Of a DNA stretch of 64,000 nucleotides, positions 6,901 through 62,039 are shown in pieces. The notes under the pieces are model-generated. The model searched no databases. It was not told the DNA's origin and worked only from the letters and a program-made list of their open reading frames with translations. Made by a program: the position numbers and the translations under genes. This stretch comes from Leptolyngbya sp. 'hensonii' (GTDB taxonomy: Bacteria > Cyanobacteriota > Cyanobacteriia > GCF-001939115): NCBI RefSeq assembly GCF_001939115.1, contig NZ_MQTZ01000044.1, forward strand, positions 62,001-126,000, in the 5' to 3' direction. How positions within the stretch are numbered: the stretch's first letter is position 1; every line of letters starts with the position of its first letter.

Positions 6901-7652
6901 GTTCAACGCTCCTGCTCCCCTTTCTAGGCCTTGCCTTGGCCCTGCGGGCTATCCCTACCGACAGGGTATTTCACGCGAGCCTGCTGACTGGGGCCAAACT
7001 TTTCAGAGATTCTGTATATACGATAATCCAGGGTGGGAGAGGGGGCGCTACAAAAGTGAGATGCGTTAGGGACTCAAGCTCCTTGTCTGCTGCTCAGACA
7101 TGCGAATAGGGTCTCTATTGGCACCGAAGCCTATTACTAGTCCGTTCAAGGAACTTTGCTGAAGTATTAGTTTCAGCAAAATTACTGTTGTGCTGTTCAG
7201 GAGAAATAGCGGAGTGCTTGTTGAACGGTTTTAATGGTTTTCTAATAGGAAACTCATTCATAGATCCGACCTTTAGATCAAGCATCTTTGGGATGAGCTT
7301 CGCTTTGCTGTAATGGGTCTTAAAAGAGGCTGATGAAAAGTGAAGAAGAGAATAATTCTGGATAAAAAAATGAAACTTATATGTGTTTTTCTCGAACAAA
7401 AAGATATTTTACGTCCTGATTTTAGATCGATTTACTGATTAATTAATAGGGATAAAACTTTTTCTGGATATGGCTTTTTGACCTCAAAGACTTTAATTTT
7501 GGTGTCCAGATAAAACTCTTCAATTGTGCAGAAGTTTAATGAGTGGTTAAGTGGAGATTATGATTTTTTGGCTGCAATTCTAATAGTGAACAGGCAAAAT
7601 ACATTTTATGAGGGTGCCCTGTGCTCATACCCCAAGCAAGCAGGTTTTAGCG

Positions 7653-9086
7653 ATGTCTTTACAGATTAAACCTTCCCCTAAGTCCGATCGTGAGCCAGTG
7701 CCTGTGACTGCCCTCTCTCAGGCCGTTGGGTTCTCAGAAAACAGCCTGCAACCAGGGTCTCTCTCAACAGATACGGCCAAAAACCTGGCTTTGGATTCCA
7801 CCCTGCAAGAACTTACCCTTTGTCGATTCCAGATTGAGACCGATCAAGTCTGCCGAGAAATTGCCCAGGTTTTTGATCAGGATCCCCTGATGCCCGGTGT
7901 GATCGTACTGGAGTCAGGGAATTTCTTTGGGATGATTTCCCGGCGGCGCTTTCTGAAGCACATGAGCCATCCCTTTGGTCCGGATCTGTTTTTGAGAAGA
8001 CCGGTGCGCCTACTCCATGAGTTTATCAGTGACACTGTATTAGTTCTGACCGGCGAGGAGTCTATTATAAAGGCGGCTGAGCAGGCTTTAGAACGCCCAT
8101 CAAAATTGCTCTACGAGCCGATCGTGGTCAATCTGGGATCTGCCGGGTATGGTCTTCTGGACATGCATCAGCTTTTGGTAGCCCAATCCCAGATCCATCA
8201 GTTAACCGTTCAGTTACTGCATGAGAAAACCCAGGCCCAGTTGATTCAGACTGAGAAGATGGCTAGTTTGGGGCAGATGGTTGCCGGGGTGGCCCATGAA
8301 ATCTTAAATCCGATTAACTTTATCTGGGGCAATATTGGGTACCTCTCAAACTACAGCCAGGATTTGATTGAACTTCTCTCGGCTTATGAAGAAGAACAGC
8401 CGACCCCCTCTGCCAGGGTAGAGGAGATCAAGGAGGCCATTGAATTGGATTTCCTGCTGAAAGATTTGCCTCAGGTGATTGATAGCGTCAGATTGGGCTC
8501 TGAGCGGTTGCGGAAGATTGTCATCGGTCTGAAGACGTTTTCCCATATGGACGAAGTCAATCGGCGAGTTGCTGACCTGCACGAGTGCATTGATAATACA
8601 CTTCTGATTCTGAACAACCGGCTCAAAACTGGAATTGAGGTTGTGAAGCATTATGGTAACCTGCCCCCAGTAAGCTGCTATTCCGGGCAACTCAGTCAGG
8701 TTTTCATGAACCTGCTCAGCAATGCGATCGATGCTTTGTTGGAGGAATGGACAGCCAGAAAAGAGGAACAGCATGATTTTCCTTCCGAGATCGACTGGCA
8801 GCCTCAGATTGTCATCCGCACCACCGTTCTACCAGCAGCCTCCGATCCCTCCCCTGAGCCTAAAGGCTGGGTTGTGATTCATATTGCGGATAATGGGCCA
8901 GGCATTCCGCTAGAAATTCAGAGCCGGATCTTTGAAACCTTCTTTACCACCAAACCTGTGGGTAAAGGAACTGGGCTGGGCTTGGCTATCAGCTATCAGA
9001 TTGTGGTAGAGAAACATCAGGGGAAACTCAATTTCCAATCACAACCGGGTTCAGGCACTGAGTTTTCGATTCATTTGCCGCTTTAG
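7653..9086 (+). CDS. Soluble histidine kinase with N-terminal CBS-like module
   Basis: A 477-residue cytosolic sensor kinase. The input region (about 45-185) is a tandem CBS-like module with MPGVIVLESG, GMISRRRFL and YEPIVV; the same module occurs in the next gene and at 60756. The DHp helix has H-box GVAHEILNP with H215. The catalytic domain has N-box N357, G1 DNGPG (413-417) and G2 GTGLGL (438-443), all intact, so autophosphorylation is expected. There is no membrane segment. I prefer the ATG at 7653, preceded by AGGT, over the in-frame ATG at 7608. The partner response regulator is not adjacent; a close homologue with a broken ATP site lies 120 bases downstream. Confidence 0.9.
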   Translation: MSLQIKPSPKSDREPVPVTALSQAVGFSENSLQPGSLSTDTAKNLALDSTLQELTLCRFQIETDQVCREIAQVFDQDPLMPGVIVLESGNFFGMISRRRFLKHMSHPFGPDLFLRRPVRLLHEFISDTVLVLTGEESIIKAAEQALERPSKLLYEPIVVNLGSAGYGLLDMHQLLVAQSQIHQLTVQLLHEKTQAQLIQTEKMASLGQMVAGVAHEILNPINFIWGNIGYLSNYSQDLIELLSAYEEEQPTPSARVEEIKEAIELDFLLKDLPQVIDSVRLGSERLRKIVIGLKTFSHMDEVNRRVADLHECIDNTLLILNNRLKTGIEVVKHYGNLPPVSCYSGQLSQVFMNLLSNAIDALLEEWTARKEEQHDFPSEIDWQPQIVIRTTVLPAASDPSPEPKGWVVIHIADNGPGIPLEIQSRIFETFFTTKPVGKGTGLGLAISYQIVVEKHQGKLNFQSQPGSGTEFSIHLPL

Positions 9087-9206: not shown

Positions 9207-10613
9207 ATGGCATTGTCTGATGACTTCGGTGCTACTCTCATTCCTCCAAACCGCTCTGAAGGCAGTGGTCAGGACTTCAACCTGGATTCTACGCTACAGG
9301 AATTGAGGTTGTATGCCTTTGAGGCTGAGACCCATTGCACCAGCGTTGAGGTGCTGCGGGTATTTGAGAAATATCCGCTCCTGCCAGGGGTCATCCTGAC
9401 AGATCAAGGGCAATACCAGGGAATGTTGTCCCGTCAGCAGTTGATGGAATATCTGGTGCGTCCCCATGGGATGGACCTGTTCCTGGAAGCCCCGATCACA
9501 TTGCTGCACAGTTATGCTCGCCGGGATGTGCTGGTGCTGGCTGGTCACACTTCGATTCTGGTTGCGGCCCAGTATGCACTCCGACGATCGTCCGAGTATC
9601 AGGGGGAGCCAGTAGTTGTGAAACTGGACCCGATGACCTATCGCCTGCTGGATGTGCATGAACTCAATATTGCCTACTGGCAAATCCGGGGGATCGAGAC
9701 CCAGGTCCGTTATGAACGGATGCAGGTGCAGATGATCCAGAGCGACAAGATGGCGAATCTGGGTCGCCTAGTGGATGGGGTAGCTCATGAGGTTCTGGAT
9801 CCAGTCAGCTTTATCTGGGGAAATTTGACCTATGTCAGCGATTATGCTCAGAATCTGCTGTACTTGCTGGAAGCCTATGAAGCTCATGTCCCTAATCCAC
9901 CAATTGAGATCGCAGCATTAGCAGAGGAAATTGAGTTGGACTATATCCGAAAGGATCTGTTGCGATCGTTCGATAGCATTAAAGCGGGGGCTGAGCGTCT
10001 GACCAAACTGGCGACCAGCCTGCAAAATTTCTGCCATATTGATGAGGTCTACCCTAAGCCAGCCGATCTACATGAATCGATCGATGGGATTCTCCTCCTC
10101 CTAAAGGGTCGCTTGGCCAGTGATATTGAGGTGATTAAACACTATGGGGATCTGCCTCCTGTGGTGTGTTACATTGGCCAGCTCAGCCAGGTGTTCATGA
10201 ACATTATCAGCAATGCTGTGGGCACATTGCTGGATCAGGTGGTGCGGCAGCGTATCATCGCAGACTTTAACCCGACGGTGGCAGTTCCCCCCGAGGCTTC
10301 AGAACTAAAGCCCCGCATTGAAATTACAACCCAGGTGCTCTCGATCGAACCCCAGACTGCCGGAAGTTCAGAGTCTCGTTGGGTCTCTGTGCGCATTGCC
10401 AATAACGGTCCGCTGATCTCGGAAGATCGACAGAAACAGCTCCGGGAAGCCCTCTCCGAAGAACGACGGGCAGCCAAAGAAACCAGCCTCTCCGTTAGCT
10501 ACCAAATCATCACAGCCAAGCATGGGGGCAAGTTGAAGTTGCGATCGCCCTGTTACACGATCGGAACAATTGCAACCGGAACGGAATTTGAAATCTTGCT
10601 CCCCATGATTTAG
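9207..10613 (+). CDS. Histidine kinase paralogue with degenerate ATP site (pseudokinase)
   Basis: A 468-residue paralogue of the preceding kinase, aligned over its whole length: the CBS-like module (about 25-155), H-box GVAHEVLDP with H194, and N-box around N332 and N336. The ATP lid motifs are lost. G1 DNGPGI has become NNGPLI (399-404), and the G2 glycine motif GTGLGL has become ETSLSV (425-430). The reading frame is open throughout, so this is not simple decay. It probably cannot bind ATP normally and may act as a phospho-acceptor or regulatory partner, perhaps dimerising with its neighbour. That role is inferred. The start ATG at 9207 has only a weak ribosome binding site. Confidence 0.85.
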   Translation: MALSDDFGATLIPPNRSEGSGQDFNLDSTLQELRLYAFEAETHCTSVEVLRVFEKYPLLPGVILTDQGQYQGMLSRQQLMEYLVRPHGMDLFLEAPITLLHSYARRDVLVLAGHTSILVAAQYALRRSSEYQGEPVVVKLDPMTYRLLDVHELNIAYWQIRGIETQVRYERMQVQMIQSDKMANLGRLVDGVAHEVLDPVSFIWGNLTYVSDYAQNLLYLLEAYEAHVPNPPIEIAALAEEIELDYIRKDLLRSFDSIKAGAERLTKLATSLQNFCHIDEVYPKPADLHESIDGILLLLKGRLASDIEVIKHYGDLPPVVCYIGQLSQVFMNIISNAVGTLLDQVVRQRIIADFNPTVAVPPEASELKPRIEITTQVLSIEPQTAGSSESRWVSVRIANNGPLISEDRQKQLREALSEERRAAKETSLSVSYQIITAKHGGKLKLRSPCYTIGTIATGTEFEILLPMI

Positions 10614-11859: not shown

Positions 11860-13800
11860 ATGTCCACAGCCCCAATCTGGGATCACTGCTTCGATAGCCT
11901 CCAAGCCAGCCTGGTTTTGCTGAGTCTGGCCGTCCTGGGGCTGTTTTGGTGGCGGCAGCGCCAGCCAGTCCCGCCCCAACCCTCGAATTACGATCGGTAT
12001 CGTCCAGATCCGTTCAATCACTGGGATACCTATCCGGTGGCGGGCATTGTTCCGCCCCTGGATCACCCTGTTGCCCCCTGGATGGGACGGTTGATCTTGC
12101 CGACTCCAGACCAGCGGACTCCGGGAGACTCGGTGTTGTTTGAAATTCACCATCAACCTTCCCAGGCTCCCCCCTTGGCGGGTGCCATCGTGCGCCTGCA
12201 ATGGAGTCAGGAGCCAGCCGTTCAGGCTTATGTTCAGGCGGCGACTCAAAGCATTCAGTTCACCCAGACGACGATCGCCAGTCAACGGGCCGGTCGGCTC
12301 CATCCCGATCGCCTCAACCATTGGCACCGGGTCGGTCCTCTGGAGTCCCTGGCTGGGGCACGACCGGATGACAATGTCATGGTGCTATTGCGGGAGCCGG
12401 TCTTGGTCAGGGAGCCGGACGAAGAGGCGGTAGAAAATCGACTCACGGTCCAAATTGCGCAGGAACCGGTTCAGATCACGGGCTGTTTCTATACCCTGTT
12501 CACCGTGCTGGAACGATGTGATCCAGAAGATGACCGGTTTACGGTGCGTCATTTTAATCAACAGTCCGGCCAATTTGACGGGACTGCCGAGGTGATCCGG
12601 ATTCCCCAGGTGGTAGCCGATCGGGATGGGATTTTCCGATCGACGAACCAGGGGTTGGAACAGTCTCCCTTGAATCGGGCTGGATGGTATGGCTACGGGG
12701 CCAGGGATATCCACGGTACTTTTGTGGTGCAGGCGCTAGAACCCCGTGCCCTGACCCGGTTGGAACCCGATGAAATCATTCTGGGGGTTGAGGCCGGGTT
12801 GCAGTACATCCATCAACAAAATTGGGCTGATACAGGAGGGAGAAAAGGGACCTGGCGCAGCACCCTCTTAGATCCATTGGCCCAGGATGTTCCAGCGGCG
12901 CTGGCCAGTTGGCAGGCAGGCGATCGGGCGCTTGTGATTCATCTTTATGGAGGTATGCGAGGGGAGCAGAAGGATGAGCGGGGCTGGTTGGGTCTGGTCA
13001 CTGGCCATTTTGCTTACGGGCAGGCCACTGTGGTCCGCGATCCCCTCTCGGATGAGCTGCGCTTCGAGATTGAATACCAGCAGATCTACGCCCACAATGC
13101 GGATGGCATTATTGCAGGAGCCATGACCTGGGCAAACTATATGGGAGATTTGCAGCGAGGGTGGCTGGGCGATCGGCCTGTGTCTGATCTGATCATTCAA
13201 TGGGATGTCATCACCCAGGATTATGAGTTTGACGGGCTGAAACTGTCTCCGCTAGGGGAGTTGTTGCGAGAGTTAAACTACGAGATGGCCCTCTGCCGCA
13301 CTGGTGGAGGAACGGGAGCGACGATCGTGACGCCAGCCCGATCCTGTGTGCAGAATTCCAATCAGGCCCTATATCGGGCGCTGCATAACATGGAGCAGAT
13401 CGTGCAGGCCCATCCAGAGATTACGTTTTGGCTGTACCATCATCCCGACCATCCCCAGACCGCTCGGTTTCACCAGTTAGTCGCCTTGGGTCGATCTCTG
13501 GAGCGACAACTCCTACCCTTGGGGTTTGTCCGGCGGGATTGGCAGAACAAGACAGATGAATTGGCCAGTCTGACTCAACCGGAGCCTCGCCTCCAGACAC
13601 TGTTGCGGGCTCTGGAAACCTGGCGGACTATGCTGCCTCGTCTCGCCCACGATGAAATGGCCAGTCTCTTGTTAAAGCAGGGGGCAAAGCTCTGGGTTAT
13701 CCGGACAAACCAGATTGGGGGACTCAATCCAGACATCCTGCCCTTGGCCCCGACGACGTTGTTGGGCGATCGCTCAAGACAATCAAATCAACCGTTGTAG
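11860..13800 (+). CDS. Large membrane-anchored protein of unknown function
   Basis: A 646-residue protein I cannot assign. One hydrophobic segment near the N-terminus (about residues 15-31, ending WWRQRQ) suggests a membrane anchor, with the rest on one side of the membrane. The body has no catalytic motif I recognise. A run from about 300 to 460 is rich in conserved-looking glycines, tryptophans and histidines (for example IHLYGGMRGEQKDERGW and YAHNADGIIAGAMTWANYMG). The region near 480-500 (RTGGGTGATIVTPARSCVQN) resembles an active-site or ligand loop. The segment around YHHPDHPQTARF is His-rich. The 3' end overlaps the convergent CheA-like gene by 18 bases. Confidence 0.7.
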   Translation: MSTAPIWDHCFDSLQASLVLLSLAVLGLFWWRQRQPVPPQPSNYDRYRPDPFNHWDTYPVAGIVPPLDHPVAPWMGRLILPTPDQRTPGDSVLFEIHHQPSQAPPLAGAIVRLQWSQEPAVQAYVQAATQSIQFTQTTIASQRAGRLHPDRLNHWHRVGPLESLAGARPDDNVMVLLREPVLVREPDEEAVENRLTVQIAQEPVQITGCFYTLFTVLERCDPEDDRFTVRHFNQQSGQFDGTAEVIRIPQVVADRDGIFRSTNQGLEQSPLNRAGWYGYGARDIHGTFVVQALEPRALTRLEPDEIILGVEAGLQYIHQQNWADTGGRKGTWRSTLLDPLAQDVPAALASWQAGDRALVIHLYGGMRGEQKDERGWLGLVTGHFAYGQATVVRDPLSDELRFEIEYQQIYAHNADGIIAGAMTWANYMGDLQRGWLGDRPVSDLIIQWDVITQDYEFDGLKLSPLGELLRELNYEMALCRTGGGTGATIVTPARSCVQNSNQALYRALHNMEQIVQAHPEITFWLYHHPDHPQTARFHQLVALGRSLERQLLPLGFVRRDWQNKTDELASLTQPEPRLQTLLRALETWRTMLPRLAHDEMASLLLKQGAKLWVIRTNQIGGLNPDILPLAPTTLLGDRSRQSNQPL

Positions 13801-15318
13801 GGTTGTCAGGAGAATCTCCTGGTTGAAGCTGCCTTTGGTGATGTAGGCATTGGCTCCTGCTTCAGCGCCCCGGCGTTTGTCGTCATCACTGGCCAGGGAG
13901 GTGACCAGGATAATCGGCATTTCATCGTAGTCCTGATGCTGACGAATCCGGGTGGTCAGTTCCAGGCCATCCAGATGGGGCATCTGGACATCGGAGATGA
14001 CGGCATCAAAGGGGCGCGATCGCAACTTGTTGTAGCCATCCATTCCATCAACTGCGGTGATCACTTCATAGCCAGCTGCCTCCAGGATGCGCTTTTCCTG
14101 GGTGCGGGTGGCGATCGAGTCTTCGACTAGCAGCACGGTTGGGCGGGCTGGATTTCGCATGTCAGCCTGGAAATGCTCAACAGCGCTTCCCCGTTGCCAC
14201 ACCGATTTGATCAAATCCTGGGGATTCAGGATCATGCAGACTTCGCCGGTGCCCAGAATGGTTGCTCCAGACACATTGCGAACCCGCTTCAGTAGCTGGC
14301 TCTGGGGCTTGAGGACCACATCCTGTTCATCGACCAGGGTATCCACAAACAACCCCAGACGCTCCTGACCCACCTGCAGGATAATGCAGGGCAGGGAACC
14401 GGTCGGCAGGGAGGATTGCCCCGGTAGTTCCAGCAGATCGGAGAGATAGGCGACGGAAAGGGGGCGGTCATCGTGGACGATCGTCTCCCGCCCTTCCAGC
14501 GTGAAAATATCCTCCCGCTTAACCAGACAAGTGGTCTGGACAAACTCCACCGGGATCGCGTAGGGGATCTGGTTCAGGGCCACAATCAGCACATGCATGG
14601 TGGCCAGGGTGAGGCCCAGATGAATCCGGATCGTGCAGCCCTGACTAGGTATCGATTCCACCTGAATATGGCCCTTCAACTTCTCGACCTGGGTCTGCAC
14701 CACATCCAGGCCGACTCCCCGTCCAGAGACTTCGGTGACCAGGGGGCAGGTGGAAAAACCCGGCGTGAAAATCAGGGATTGGATCTGGCTGGGGGAGAGG
14801 GTGGCTAGATCATCTTCCCGACAGAGCCCTTTTTTGAGGGCAGTCTGTTTGATCTTTTCCAGATCCAGACCCCGACCGTCATCTTTGACCTCCAGCACAA
14901 TGCTGGTGGGGGTTTGATAGCCCCGCAGATGAATGGTGGCTGTGGCCGGTTTGCCCTGTTGTTCCCGTTCTGCAGGCAGCTCAATCCCATGATCCACAGC
15001 ATTCCGCAGGATATGCATCAGGGGATCTTTCATCTCCTCCAGAATGCGTTTATCAGCGCGGGTGTCGCCACCTGCGATCGTCAGTTCGACCTGTTTGCCT
15101 TCCTGGCGAGCCAGATCCCGCACCATGCGGGGGAAGAGGTTGAAGATGGTGGAGAGGGGTAACAGGCGCAGGGTGCGGATACCTTCTTCTAGATCGTGAC
15201 TGATGAGTTCCAACCGGGTGGTGTCTTCATTCAAGGCACTTTGCAGGGTCTTAACCAGAGAGCCGAACTGCTCCAGGCGTTGATCCATGCGGTTGTACAG
15301 GGCTTCCAGATGTTGCAA
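13783..15318 (-). CDS. CheA-like hybrid kinase core: HATPase-CheW-REC, without Hpt
   Basis: A 511-residue C-terminal part of a CheA-family hybrid kinase. In order: the end of the dimerisation helices, HATPase_c (N106, DDGRG 146-150, GRGVGL 199-204), a CheW-like coupling domain (about 235-375) and a receiver (about 393-511, D443). All ATP-binding motifs are intact. The 5' part of the same gene lies upstream in the same frame (15334-15597), separated by a single TAG at 15333-15331. No Hpt (P1) domain exists between here and cheW, so the normal phosphorylated His is missing. The start shown is a TTG just after the stop; whether it is used is unknown. The gene overlaps the convergent unknown gene by 18 bases. 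Confidence 0.8.
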   Translation of the reverse strand: MQHLEALYNRMDQRLEQFGSLVKTLQSALNEDTTRLELISHDLEEGIRTLRLLPLSTIFNLFPRMVRDLARQEGKQVELTIAGGDTRADKRILEEMKDPLMHILRNAVDHGIELPAEREQQGKPATATIHLRGYQTPTSIVLEVKDDGRGLDLEKIKQTALKKGLCREDDLATLSPSQIQSLIFTPGFSTCPLVTEVSGRGVGLDVVQTQVEKLKGHIQVESIPSQGCTIRIHLGLTLATMHVLIVALNQIPYAIPVEFVQTTCLVKREDIFTLEGRETIVHDDRPLSVAYLSDLLELPGQSSLPTGSLPCIILQVGQERLGLFVDTLVDEQDVVLKPQSQLLKRVRNVSGATILGTGEVCMILNPQDLIKSVWQRGSAVEHFQADMRNPARPTVLLVEDSIATRTQEKRILEAAGYEVITAVDGMDGYNKLRSRPFDAVISDVQMPHLDGLELTTRIRQHQDYDEMPIILVTSLASDDDKRRGAEAGANAYITKGSFNQEILLTTLQRLI

Positions 15319-15330
15319 GGAACCATTGCC

Positions 15331-15597
15331 CTAGCGCGCATCCTGGAGCACAAATCGGTTGGTAAACAGATCCCGACTCCATTCCTCCCAGAGGTTGGCC
15401 ATGCCCTCCACCTCTGCGAGGCGGTGGGCAACTCGGATCTTCGTGACCGTGAGTTCACCGGCCTGCGTCAGCAGGGAGTCCAGTTCTTTCGTGGGCACTC
15501 GGATGGTTTCGATCCGGTAGTTAGACCGGGAAAGGGGAGAGGGGGCGTGGTTGAGGCTTGGGGGTTCAGCCTCCGTGGCTCCATGGCGTGGCTCCAC
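15331..15597 (-). pseudogene. 5' fragment of the CheA-like kinase (dimerisation domain), ended by TAG
   Basis: Eighty-eight codons from a GTG at 15597 to an amber stop. The translation has a short Ser/Pro-rich lead, then the typical CheA dimerisation start (IRVPTKELDSLLTQAGELTV) and the NLWEEWSRD block found in cyanobacterial CheA hybrids. After the TAG the same frame continues without loss into the next helix (GNGSLQHLEALYNRMDQRLE), so one base change (for example CAG to TAG) would explain the break. The fragment begins five bases after the cheW stop. There is no room for an Hpt domain in front of it. Confidence 0.75.
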
Positions 15598-15601
15598 CTC
15601 T

Positions 15602-16156
15602 CTAGAGTCTTCCTTGGCTTGGCGTGCCGCCCTTTGGGCTCCCTATTGCCGCTTGCACTTCTGGTGGAGCAGTTGGGCTGTCCGGCTGAAAAGTAGGCTG
15701 GTGACCGTTGGACTGCAGATCTGAAAGCGGGGTGAGGGGATGTAGCAGTTGCTCTCCATTCAACAATGTGACGATTTCCTCCCCCACCCTGGCCATGCCA
15801 CTGATCAGGCTTGCTCCAGGGGGCTGGCTTTGCATCACTTGAGTGCTGATTTGATCCGTCCCGATCGGCTGGACTTCTCGCACCTGATTCACAATGATTC
15901 CCAGGCGATCGGTAGTTGTCTGGATAATAATGACACAGTCGGAGAGTTGGTAAGGGGGAGACTTGCGCCCCAGACGACGATGCAGATCCAGCACGGGCAC
16001 AATGTCGCCCCGCAAGTCGATGACGCCAGCAATGGCAGAGGGAGAATCTGGGACTGCCATGATCTCTGGCAGGAGGAGCAGTTCCTGGACCGTGGCGGCT
16101 GCCAGACCATAGCAGGTGTGACTGAGTTCAAAGGTGAGATAGGGTTGGTATTCCAT
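15602..16156 (-). CDS. cheW: CheW-type coupling protein
   Basis: A 184-residue adaptor that links receptors to a CheA kinase. Residues 1-145 form the CheW fold, with FELSHTCYGLAAATVQELL, the GVIDLRGDIVPVLDLHRRLG signature (about 44-63) and LGIIVNQVREV. The last 40 residues are a Pro/Ser-rich tail, longer than usual. The start overlaps the end of cheR by 29 bases, and the CheA-like gene follows within five bases, so the three form one transcription unit on the minus strand. Confidence 0.93.
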   Translation of the reverse strand: MEYQPYLTFELSHTCYGLAAATVQELLLLPEIMAVPDSPSAIAGVIDLRGDIVPVLDLHRRLGRKSPPYQLSDCVIIIQTTTDRLGIIVNQVREVQPIGTDQISTQVMQSQPPGASLISGMARVGEEIVTLLNGEQLLHPLTPLSDLQSNGHQPTFQPDSPTAPPEVQAAIGSPKGGTPSQGRL

Positions 16157-17597
16157 AGTTCTGCAGACTCTTTTCTACCTGAGTTTGTAATTCCTTGACA
16201 GTGAAGGTTCCCTGGGGCTCGATCACCCGATCCTGGGGCATGTGATGTAACAGATCCAGGGCCGAGCGCCAGTTCCTGATCGCCCTGGCTTCGTTGCCTA
16301 ACCGCTGATGCAGGGAACCCAGTTCCAGGTAGGCCATCACTGCTTCCGGGGCCAGATAGATGATGCGCCTGAGCAGTTGCATGGCCTGTTCCACATCCCC
16401 CTGTTCTTCGGCAATCTGAGCCAGGAGATAGCAGGGCTCTACACTCAGGGGATGAAACTGCAGAGCTTGCTGACAGACCATCACCGCCTGCTGATGATCC
16501 CCCAGGTTGGCATAGATCTGTGCCAGCAGGCAGTGTCCCCGCAGATGCTGGGGTTCCAGCAGCAATAAGGTTCTGGCTGTGTGAATGGCTGCGCTGTAAG
16601 ATTGCTGGGCCACTAAAGATTCCAACTGCTGAAAAAGGGTTTCTGGGGTTTTGTCCTCAACCTTCGCGCTGGGGAGGGGAGCGGCTGTTTCCAACCCGAT
16701 CGTTGGTGCTGGTGTTGGGAGTGCAACTTTCAGTTCCGGTGTTGGGATTGTTTCATCGGCGGGGGACTTCTGATAAACGATTGACTCCGAAAAACTGCGG
16801 ACGGCAAATAGATGGATACGTTGTCCCTGCAGTTCGGTATGCCCTGTGATCAGATACCCGTCTGGTCGTAGGGCGTCGTAGAAGGTCTTCAGAGTTGCTG
16901 CGATCGCTGCCGGATCAAAATAGATAAATACATTGCGACAGAGGATCACATCTATGTTGGAATGTAACTTGCCTGAATCAGGCTGCTGAACTAGATTTTC
17001 CACCTGAAAGGTCACCATGTCTCGCAGTTCCGGAGCAATCTCCCATCCTTCCCGGTGCGGTTGAAAATATCGCTGTCTCAGGTCTTGATCCACCAATCGA
17101 AACGACCAATCACTATAGATGCCTCGCTCTGCCCGATCGATCGCAGCAGGATTGATGTCTGTGCCCAGAATGGAAATGCTCCAGGCCGACAAATTTGGCA
17201 CAACTTCCCTTAAAAGAATGGCCAGAGAGTAGGCTTCTTCCCCTGTGGAACAACCGGCACTCCAGAGACGCAGGGAAGGGTGAGGGTGGGTTTGCTGTCG
17301 ATGGATCAGGTCTGGTAAGAGGGTGCGCCGCAGTAATCCAAACTGCCCCTGATCTCGCAAGAAATAGCTTTCTCCGATCGTGATCAGACTGGCCAGTTCC
17401 TGCCACTCTGCTTTGACTGACGCTGAACCCTGCCCAGAGGCCAGGAACTGATAGTATGAGTCCTGACTGGGTAGGCTCAGGGCTGTAGTTCTAGTCTTGA
17501 TTTTGCCCCAGAGCTGACCCCAATCTTTCGCATCTACTCGCAATCCCAGGGTTCTAGCAATCAGTTGGCTGAAGGGCAATCCTAGGGTATTCTGCAT
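16128..17597 (-). CDS. cheR: CheR methyltransferase with C-terminal TPR repeats
   Basis: A 489-residue protein that methylates glutamates of chemoreceptors with S-adenosylmethionine. The CheR domain spans about 1-275: LITIGESYFLRD (71-82), the SAM-binding SAGCSTGEEAYSLA (113-126) and ILCRNVFIYF further on. A Pro-rich linker follows, then TPR-like repeats from about 310 to 465 (for example LLAQIYANLGDHQQAVMVCQ). CheR-TPR fusions are usual in Wsp- and Frz-like systems that control outputs other than flagella. It is the first gene of the cheR-cheW-cheA unit. A 1.1 kb region separates it from the response regulator at 18718. Confidence 0.95.
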   Translation of the reverse strand: MQNTLGLPFSQLIARTLGLRVDAKDWGQLWGKIKTRTTALSLPSQDSYYQFLASGQGSASVKAEWQELASLITIGESYFLRDQGQFGLLRRTLLPDLIHRQQTHPHPSLRLWSAGCSTGEEAYSLAILLREVVPNLSAWSISILGTDINPAAIDRAERGIYSDWSFRLVDQDLRQRYFQPHREGWEIAPELRDMVTFQVENLVQQPDSGKLHSNIDVILCRNVFIYFDPAAIAATLKTFYDALRPDGYLITGHTELQGQRIHLFAVRSFSESIVYQKSPADETIPTPELKVALPTPAPTIGLETAAPLPSAKVEDKTPETLFQQLESLVAQQSYSAAIHTARTLLLLEPQHLRGHCLLAQIYANLGDHQQAVMVCQQALQFHPLSVEPCYLLAQIAEEQGDVEQAMQLLRRIIYLAPEAVMAYLELGSLHQRLGNEARAIRNWRSALDLLHHMPQDRVIEPQGTFTVKELQTQVEKSLQNYGIPTLSHL

Positions 17598-18513: not shown

Positions 18514-18543
18514 GGGGGGAAGGGGGTACGCCCCCTTCCCCCC
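18514..18543. repeat. Perfect 13-base GC stem with TACG loop
   Basis: GGGGGGAAGGGGG (18514-18526), TACG, then CCCCCTTCCCCCC (18531-18543): a perfect hairpin with a four-base loop. No T-run follows on either strand. It could be a second transcription barrier, an mRNA end-protecting structure or a dispersed repeat. It lies 175 bases before the response regulator gene. Confidence 0.7.
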
Positions 18544-18717: not shown

Positions 18718-19116
18718 ATGACGATCGACGCGATAGCCCCAACCGTGCTGGCCGTGGATGATAGTGCGGTGATGCACCAGATGATTAAGCGAGCCCTGGA
18801 ACCTCAGTATCGGGTGCTCGTCTCAGATAACGCAGTTGAAGCATTGTCGATGATCTATCACGAACCCATTTCAGTGGTTCTGCTGGATGTCATGATGCCG
18901 GATGTCGATGGGTTGGAATTTTGCCGCACCCTGCGAAGTTTGCCTCAGTTTCAGCAATTGCCTGTGGTGATGGTGACCTCCAAAGACACGGCCTTCGATC
19001 GGGTCAAGGGCAAACTGGCGGGGGCAACGGAATATCTGATCAAGCCGTTTGATATTGACCAGTTGCGGCAAATTGTGGATCAGCTTTCAACCGCCTCTGT
19101 ATCTGAAGTGGGCTAG
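18718..19116 (+). CDS. Single-domain response regulator (CheY-like)
   Basis: A 132-residue protein consisting only of a receiver domain. The acidic pair DD (14-15), phospho-acceptor D57 in LLDVMMPDVDG, T87 in MVTSKD and K109 in LIKPF are all present. Receivers of this kind carry phosphate from a CheA kinase to a target protein. It lies between the cheR-cheW-cheA unit and cheB, converging on cheB, so it probably belongs to this chemosensory system. The output partner is not visible. Confidence 0.93.
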   Translation: MTIDAIAPTVLAVDDSAVMHQMIKRALEPQYRVLVSDNAVEALSMIYHEPISVVLLDVMMPDVDGLEFCRTLRSLPQFQQLPVVMVTSKDTAFDRVKGKLAGATEYLIKPFDIDQLRQIVDQLSTASVSEVG

Positions 19117-19161: not shown

Positions 19162-20232
19162 TCAAAGAGGCGCAAAAATTTTGTGCAGCAATATCGGGGC
19201 AATCTGATCCAAGGGCAGCACCTGTTGCACTGCCCCTAGGGCGATCGCTTCTTTGGGCATCCCAAATACGACACAACTGGCTTCATCCTGAGCGATCGTG
19301 ATGCCACTGGCTTGAGCCAGTTCGGCCAATCCTTCCGCCCCATCCCGCCCCATGCCCGTGAGCAAAATGCCGACGGCCGATCGCCGGTAGTAGGCGGCTA
19401 CTGAGCGAAACAAAATGGTCGCAGAAGGACAATGGCCTGCGACTGGGGGGCCTTGGGGCAGTAGGAAGCGCCCATGGGGGTCCAGTTGTAGATGACAGCG
19501 TTCGGGCGGAAAGTACACGGTGCCGACCTGGGGGATTTCTCCAGGCTGGGCGATCCGAACTTTCAAGCTACACTCAGCCGCCAGCCAGTTCACTAAACCG
19601 GTTAAAAAGCCTTCACTGATGTGCTGGACACAGAGAATGGGCACTGCAAAGGACCGGGGGATCTGGCTGAGGATGGTATGCATGGCTTGGGGACCTCCGG
19701 TCGAGGCCCCGATCGCCACCACCCTCGGGAAGCAGATATCTCTGGGGACCGAGATCGCTGGGAGGGAACTTGGCAGGGGCACAGGTTTGATCTCAGAGGA
19801 TGAAGCTGGGCGACGGGTAAATACTGAAACCCCGGCTAGGACTCTGATGCGGTTGAGCAGGTCTATTTTCATCTGTTCGTACTCAGAGGAAAGACCTGTC
19901 CGAGGCTTAGGGAAGACATCTAGGGCTCCGGCCTGCAACAATTGAAAAACAGTATGGCTATCTTCAGCCTGGACCGAGGCACTGATGACGAGAATGGGTC
20001 TGGGACACTCTGCCATGACTCGGCGGGTTAACTCCAACCCACCCATTTTGGGCATGTGCAGGTCAGTGCAAATGACGGTAGGGTTGACCTGAGGAATGAG
20101 TGCCAGCGCTTCTATTCCATTGTGGGCAGTCCCTACAATCTCCATATCGGGCGTTTCTGCCAGCAACCGTCGGAGAATGGTCAGAACTACGGGGGAATCC
20201 TCAACCAGTAAGACACGAATGGGGACAGCCAT
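19162..20232 (-). CDS. cheB: CheB protein-glutamate methylesterase
   Basis: A 356-residue response regulator that removes methyl groups from chemoreceptors and can deamidate glutamines. The receiver (1-120) has D57 and K109 in PKP. After a linker, the methylesterase domain (about 168-350) shows the triad: S177 in GASTGGP, H204 in VQHIS and D297 in GMGRDGA. Together with cheR it completes an adaptation loop. No transmembrane chemoreceptor gene lies in the window; the soluble receptor-like protein at 60756 is a possible partner, but that is speculative. Confidence 0.96.
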   Translation of the reverse strand: MAVPIRVLLVEDSPVVLTILRRLLAETPDMEIVGTAHNGIEALALIPQVNPTVICTDLHMPKMGGLELTRRVMAECPRPILVISASVQAEDSHTVFQLLQAGALDVFPKPRTGLSSEYEQMKIDLLNRIRVLAGVSVFTRRPASSSEIKPVPLPSSLPAISVPRDICFPRVVAIGASTGGPQAMHTILSQIPRSFAVPILCVQHISEGFLTGLVNWLAAECSLKVRIAQPGEIPQVGTVYFPPERCHLQLDPHGRFLLPQGPPVAGHCPSATILFRSVAAYYRRSAVGILLTGMGRDGAEGLAELAQASGITIAQDEASCVVFGMPKEAIALGAVQQVLPLDQIAPILLHKIFAPL

Positions 20233-60755: not shown

Positions 60756-62039
60756 ATGCTTAACTTCACGCAGCTCACACCAGACTCCTCAATTGGAGAT
60801 CTGCCTGCCTACAAAGTGCATCTGGATATTGAAACTCTGGGTCGGGAACTTTCGGATCTCTTTGAGCAGCAGCCCATTTTACCTGGCATCGTCATCATTG
60901 AAGGGAACCGGATGGTGGGGTTGATCTCCCGACGTAAATTTCTGGAACGGATGAGCCAACCCTACAGCCTGGAACTCTATCTTAAACGGCCAGTCCGGGC
61001 TTTGTTGGAGGTGATGAAACATGAGCCAACGCGGTTACCAGGGGACTGTAAGATCGAGCAGGCAGCTCAGATTGCCCTGACTCGACCCGCTGAGACGGTT
61101 TACGAACCGATCGTGGTCGTGGGTCGGGATAAAAAATTGCGGGTTGTGGATGTCCCGGTGCTTCTCCTGGCTCAGAATCACATCATGAGCCAGATCAACC
61201 GCATGATTCAACAACAAAAGGATGAACTGGATCGCTGCTTGCACCAGGTGCAGCAGGAGCAGGCTAGGGCTCAGGAGTATGCGCACCTGCTGGAGATCAA
61301 GCAGGCAGAGAGTCAAGAGCGCAATCGCTTGCTGGAATCTCAACAGAGTGAGTTGATCAATCAGGCTCAGCAAATTAGTGATTTGAATCAACGCTTTATT
61401 AAGATTGGTCAACTCCTCTCTCTTGAGGGTAAGAAAGCGTTTCAGGCCACCTTTGAAGGGGTAGAAGCCATTTGCCAGAACACCGATCACATTATCAGTA
61501 CGGGCAAATCCCTGGCCAGAGAACTGGAAACCGTCCAGGAAGCCTCCCGGTTGATTGAAAAGGTGAGCAAGCAGGCCCGCTATCTGGCTGTTCAAGCGGC
61601 GGTGATTGCCAATCAAACCGGGGGACAGTTTGAAGGATTCAGCCGGGTCACCAATGACATCAGCCAGTTGGTCAGCCAGACTTTTGAAGCAGCCCGCCAA
61701 ACCAATGAAACCGTAACTCAGTTTCGGTTTCTCATCAGTGAGTTAACGAAGTTTGCTCAGCAAGGAGCCGGTACAGCCCAATCTCTGATTGAAAAAACCG
61801 CTCAAGCAGAGATCGCCCTGCTGGAACTGGAACAACTGGTGTCCCATCAACAGGTCCAGAAGGTGTCTGAGTTTGAGGTCATCCTCTCCAACAGCGCAGT
61901 TCAAACTCTGGTGCAGAAAATCCAGAGTGCGGGTGCTGCCATCAAAGAACTTGAGGAAATGGCCAAACTGAGGGATGTCCAGCAGTTGATTCAGAAAGTG
62001 GATCAGCCCCTCAAATATGGTCGCAGGCCAATTAGTTGA
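60756..62039 (+). CDS. Soluble chemoreceptor-like protein with CBS-like module
   Basis: A 427-residue protein without membrane segments. Residues 20-140 are the same CBS-like module as in the kinases at 7653 and 9207 (ILPGIVIIEG, GLISRRKFLERMS and YEPIVV). A long coiled coil (about 142-215) follows. Residues 230-360 resemble a methyl-accepting receptor hairpin, with the tip around ARYLAVQAAVIANQ (275-288) and FSRVTNDISQL. This places a CheA/CheW-type output on the shared input module. Methylation sites cannot be fixed. Start ATG 60756. Confidence 0.82.
   Translation: MLNFTQLTPDSSIGDLPAYKVHLDIETLGRELSDLFEQQPILPGIVIIEGNRMVGLISRRKFLERMSQPYSLELYLKRPVRALLEVMKHEPTRLPGDCKIEQAAQIALTRPAETVYEPIVVVGRDKKLRVVDVPVLLLAQNHIMSQINRMIQQQKDELDRCLHQVQQEQARAQEYAHLLEIKQAESQERNRLLESQQSELINQAQQISDLNQRFIKIGQLLSLEGKKAFQATFEGVEAICQNTDHIISTGKSLARELETVQEASRLIEKVSKQARYLAVQAAVIANQTGGQFEGFSRVTNDISQLVSQTFEAARQTNETVTQFRFLISELTKFAQQGAGTAQSLIEKTAQAEIALLELEQLVSHQQVQKVSEFEVILSNSAVQTLVQKIQSAGAAIKELEEMAKLRDVQQLIQKVDQPLKYGRRPIS

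Follow-up and report, generated by a model that had tools for sequence, protein, structure and literature searches.

A putative double-lesion cheA pseudogene in a decaying chemotaxis operon of Leptolyngbya sp. 'hensonii'

On the minus strand of the 64-kb stretch of Leptolyngbya sp. 'hensonii' DNA analysed here (the window) there is a CheA-like frame that encodes no Hpt domain and is split by one TAG codon, which raises the question of whether it represents a new kind of kinase or the remains of a familiar one. A sequence-only reading of the same DNA had left three options: a sequencing error in a naturally Hpt-less kinase, a recent null mutation, or a two-polypeptide kinase that uses a separate Hpt protein. 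We regard the locus, with considerable confidence, as an ordinary pseudogene carrying two lesions, in a copy, now decaying, of a chemotaxis operon that is conserved in cyanobacteria, and not as a new kinase type. The features discussed are these:

13783..15330, minus strand: 3' part of the putative cheA pseudogene (Pfam matches; orthologues in other cyanobacteria 64-74% identical)
15331..15333, minus strand: in-frame TAG inside the P3 dimerisation domain (frame, orthologue alignment, codon-usage scan)
15331..15597, minus strand: 5' part of the putative cheA pseudogene, 88 aa, GTG start (PF02895 positions 2-41; homology to orthologous CheA)
15520..15740, minus strand: interval holding the proposed deletion junction (distance comparison with relatives, alignment, uniqueness in the genome)
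15602..16156, minus strand: truncated cheW, consisting of the first CheW domain and a 45-aa tail (one CheW domain by Pfam, against two in the orthologue at locus L053; alignment)
16128..17597, minus strand: cheR with TPR repeats, apparently intact, 489 aa (Pfam; collinear with orthologues)
18718..19116, plus strand: cheY-like single receiver, intact (Pfam; gene neighbourhood comparison)
19162..20232, minus strand: cheB, intact, 356 aa (Pfam; gene neighbourhood comparison)

The CheA-like frame runs from a GTG at 15597 to a stop at 13785-13783, and inspection of the frame together with a codon-usage scan bears out the earlier statement that the TAG at 15333-15331 is its sole interruption. CheA sequence is found on both sides of this codon, as had also been proposed. 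The 88-aa 5' part comprises a residual Pro-rich linker and the beginning of P3, matching PF02895 at profile positions 2-41 of 68, with clear homology to orthologous CheA beginning at about 15519. The 3' part (511 aa, its ORF being callable from a TTG at 15318) contains the remainder of the dimerisation domain followed by Pfam matches to HATPase_c, CheW and Response_reg, that is, the ATPase, the CheW-like domain and a receiver. P3, the P4 HATPase and the P5 CheW-like domain are thus all recognisable by Pfam, but not in one continuous frame, the TAG cutting P3. A functional CheA also carries an Hpt (P1) domain with a phosphorylatable His. The Pfam scan found no Hpt encoded in the cheA remnant, and it was rightly noted before that there is no room for one, since cheW ends only 4 bases ahead of the GTG.

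In the codon-usage scan of the window, stops were retained if they had 60 open codons on both sides, which left 74. The TAG at 15333-15331 ranks first among these by a wide margin in coding score (33.3), and the next-best stops are either antisense to a stronger frame or ordinary gene boundaries, so that chance does not explain the interruption and nothing marks the window as rich in errors. The TAG lies in a variable, length-polymorphic stretch of P3, where 80 orthologues show many different sense residues or a gap.

These orthologues, of a gene that is widespread among cyanobacteria, come from a scan of 84,980 GTDB species, in which 80 orthologous loci were kept, 8 of them cut by a contig end. 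The gene order in the cyanobacterial neighbourhoods that were fetched is cheR (with TPR), cheW, MCP and cheA, with cheB usually next, and such operons, in which cheA ends in a receiver, occur in Leptolyngbya, Nodosilinea, Oscillatoria, Planktothrix, Microcoleus and others. Their proteins measure 345-391 aa (cheW), about 485 aa (MCP) and 825-1210 aa (cheA). By Pfam, the orthologous operon at L053 encodes two CheW domains, an MCP with CHASE3 and MCPsignal, and an Hpt at the start of CheA. The window shares with these operons an orthologous cheA (64-74% identical in the closest cases), cheR, cheW and the gene order around the lesion; it differs from them in having no second CheW domain, no MCP and no Hpt, and in having a nonsense codon.

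An Hpt match is present at the start of cheA in all 72 of the orthologues that are not cut by a contig end (the match being partial in L115). The absence of Hpt is therefore not a trait of the family, and the idea of a naturally Hpt-less kinase is not supported. A seemingly short orthologue of 590 aa (G203) was considered as a second Hpt-less case and rejected, the contig ending there. In Nodosilinea sp. LEGE 06152 (L086), the Hpt of cheA and the remainder of the gene are in separate open frames, a break due to error or mutation. A split of cheA similar to that in the window was not found in any orthologue from the scan. The compared genomes share only the class with Leptolyngbya sp. 'hensonii': no closer relative was found among the 390 class members searched, and the highest cheA identity is 74%.

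The genes around cheA also follow the relatives, up to the point at which cheW breaks off. The cheW gene of the window is without the second CheW domain that its orthologues carry. The placement of cheB upstream of cheR is that of Nodosilinea-type loci, most other loci having it downstream of cheA, and the cheY-like gene is convergent with cheB, as in locus L057. In the 1.1-kb gap from cheR to cheY there is a strong, near-perfect G/C palindrome at 18514-18543 (GGGGGGAAGGGGG..CCCCCTTCCCCCC, 13 pairs), followed on the minus strand by T-rich sequence; a terminator and a dispersed palindromic repeat are both possible.

Relatives have 2.3-6.2 kb (29 loci, median 4.3 kb) between the end of the first CheW domain and CheA P3, and Nodosilinea-type loci with the same placement of cheB ahead of cheR have 3.3-3.4 kb; in the window the two points are about 0.21 kb apart. 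Relative to the loci examined in other cyanobacteria, cheA and its neighbours have lost several kilobases, and the earlier view that the gene has not decayed does not hold. The missing parts, namely the second CheW domain, the MCP and the CheA Hpt with its linker, adjoin one another in relatives. Since cheR is complete, cheW is halved, the MCP is absent, cheA begins from P3 with only about 0.2 kb left between, and the lost parts are nowhere else, one deletion fits every missing part. The simplest account is probably a single deletion of about 2-6 kb, and probably of 3-4 kb, with 3.2-4.1 kb the most likely size. The reading frame is broken across the junction interval (15520..15740), cheW and the cheA remnant lying in different frames, so no cheW-cheA fusion protein is made. 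The sequence of the interval occurs once in the genome, by which a mobile or repeated element at the junction was rejected.

The assembly is a 77-contig draft of 5.94 Mb, 99.98% complete, and the window lies on a contig of 250 kb. No remnant of the MCP, the second CheW domain or the Hpt was found within the window, and searches of the whole genome with orthologous MCP and Hpt as queries found neither lost part, so that their relocation was rejected. The best matches in these searches had 24-34% identity, against 51-63% between relatives for the orthologous MCP and Hpt, and the strong matches came from the three other che clusters. The CheA genes of these three clusters all have an Hpt and each adjoins an MCP gene, the clusters being intact; the cluster in the window is the only one of the four CheA clusters without a neighbouring MCP. 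A 427-aa ORF at 60756-62039 of the window has a coiled coil that matches MCPs weakly (26 bits, below the cut-off); the matching region, 61131-62006, was rejected as an MCP remnant, having only about 20% identity to MCPs. A second CheB/CheR pair lies outside the four che clusters (C36:21051-22682).

The combination that characterises a pseudogene in a degraded operon, intact orthologues in relatives and disabling lesions in the copy concerned, is what is found here. In the ancestral order, cheR would have been followed by a two-domain cheW, the MCP and a cheA encoding Hpt-P3-P4-P5-REC. A single deletion with one end midway through cheW and the other in the linker ahead of CheA P3 would have taken the receptor gene together with the sequences for the second CheW domain and the Hpt, and the nonsense codon in P3 of the leftover cheA would be a further lesion. 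The kinase remnant would be unable to autophosphorylate, having no Hpt. It would be translated only as the 88-aa fragment, which stops inside P3, joined at best by a fragment re-initiated at TTG 15318, which would be without the beginning of P3. With no Hpt and only fragments translated, the locus most likely makes no working CheA.

Some features sit less easily with a pseudogene. Every catalytic motif is preserved, the frame is whole apart from the TAG and has no frameshift, and nothing is missing from cheR, cheB or cheY; all of this would also fit continued selection. Of 149 near-invariant residues (conserved in at least 97%), 2 are altered in the cheA remnant, a number typical of an intact orthologue. 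On a neutral assumption, no more than about 2% of change per site can have built up since inactivation, and one stop would be expected after about that much change. The small number of changes makes the inactivation look recent, and it probably was; the conserved-site data, drawn from genomes of the same class only, are consistent both with recent loss and with continued selection, and at this distance they do not show directly which lesion came first or how old either is. A recent null mutation was the best of the three options first put forward, but an incomplete one, the main lesion probably being the deletion of several kilobases.

The TAG by itself might be a sequencing or assembly error, in which case what the deletion left would really be an uninterrupted CheA fragment without Hpt. 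In favour of this, the stop stands alone in a frame that is clean elsewhere, and relatives have sense codons at the site. We nevertheless consider it unlikely: the rest of the 64-kb window contains no other comparable stop and no sign of an error-rich assembly. An error could account for the TAG but not for the missing parts, and correcting it would not restore the Hpt.

An Hpt-less CheA can function, as shown by CheA4 of Rhodobacter sphaeroides, which has no P1 and phosphorylates the P1 of CheA3 in trans (PMC3591291). By analogy, the P3-P4-P5-REC fragment might phosphorylate the Hpt of another CheA or hybrid protein, the TAG being a sequencing error, a site of readthrough, or a break at which two chains reassemble within P3. 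Like CheA4, the remnant keeps P3-P4-P5 without P1; it has whole ATP-binding, CheW and receiver domains and has lost few conserved residues, the break falls in a length-variable stretch, and other Hpt domains exist in the genome. In Rhodobacter, however, the partner CheA3 is present and P3 is whole, whereas in the window P3 is cut by the TAG and the receptor of the cluster is lost, along with the second CheW domain. A listing of every CheW and Hpt domain in the genome showed no protein of the CheA3 kind (Hpt and CheW without the P3/P4 kinase core). In addition, the deletion is out of frame, and no orthologue is organised in this way. A working split kinase is therefore very improbable.

The separate Hpt protein that had been envisaged was also looked for. 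There are 15 Hpt matches in the genome, three of them in the full CheAs. Of the twelve others, seven were scanned with Pfam, six proving to be of receiver, DNA-binding or GGDEF type and one (on contig C20) matching below the cut-off only; for the remaining five, the class was assigned from position and ORF length alone. The Hpts above the cut-off belong to the three full CheAs, to four long proteins that carry them C-terminally, or to receiver/GGDEF-type proteins. No partner was found among them, and a free-standing Hpt partner was rejected on this survey. The match on C20 (L180:2916-3644) is a membrane-anchored coiled-coil protein of about 242-243 aa with the Hpt-like motif ELAHKFRGSASLL, encoded between genes for VWA-domain-like and substrate-binding-like proteins; it is a possible free-standing Hpt-like protein. 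Within the window, two tandem paralogous proteins are encoded at 7608-9086 and 9207-10613, the former histidine kinase-like with an ATPase end that looks intact, the latter with a C-terminal ATPase motif that looks degenerate.

That the deletion is an assembly collapse, with an intact operon in the cell, is extremely unlikely: a 77-contig draft could harbour such an artefact, but the junction is unique and inside its contig, so that no repeat-driven collapse is evident, and no other contig of the nearly complete assembly carries the lost MCP or Hpt. It is scarcely credible that the fragment is still used through two separately translated chains rejoining within P3, as a receptor-less kinase acting in trans on the Hpt of another che cluster.

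Read as a pseudogene, what appeared to be a split, Hpt-less CheA becomes a clear case of operon decay, in which the receptor, the second adaptor domain and the phospho-acceptor were probably removed together. As a biological finding such decay is ordinary, and the 511-aa ORF serves as a warning against its annotation as a new class of CheA.
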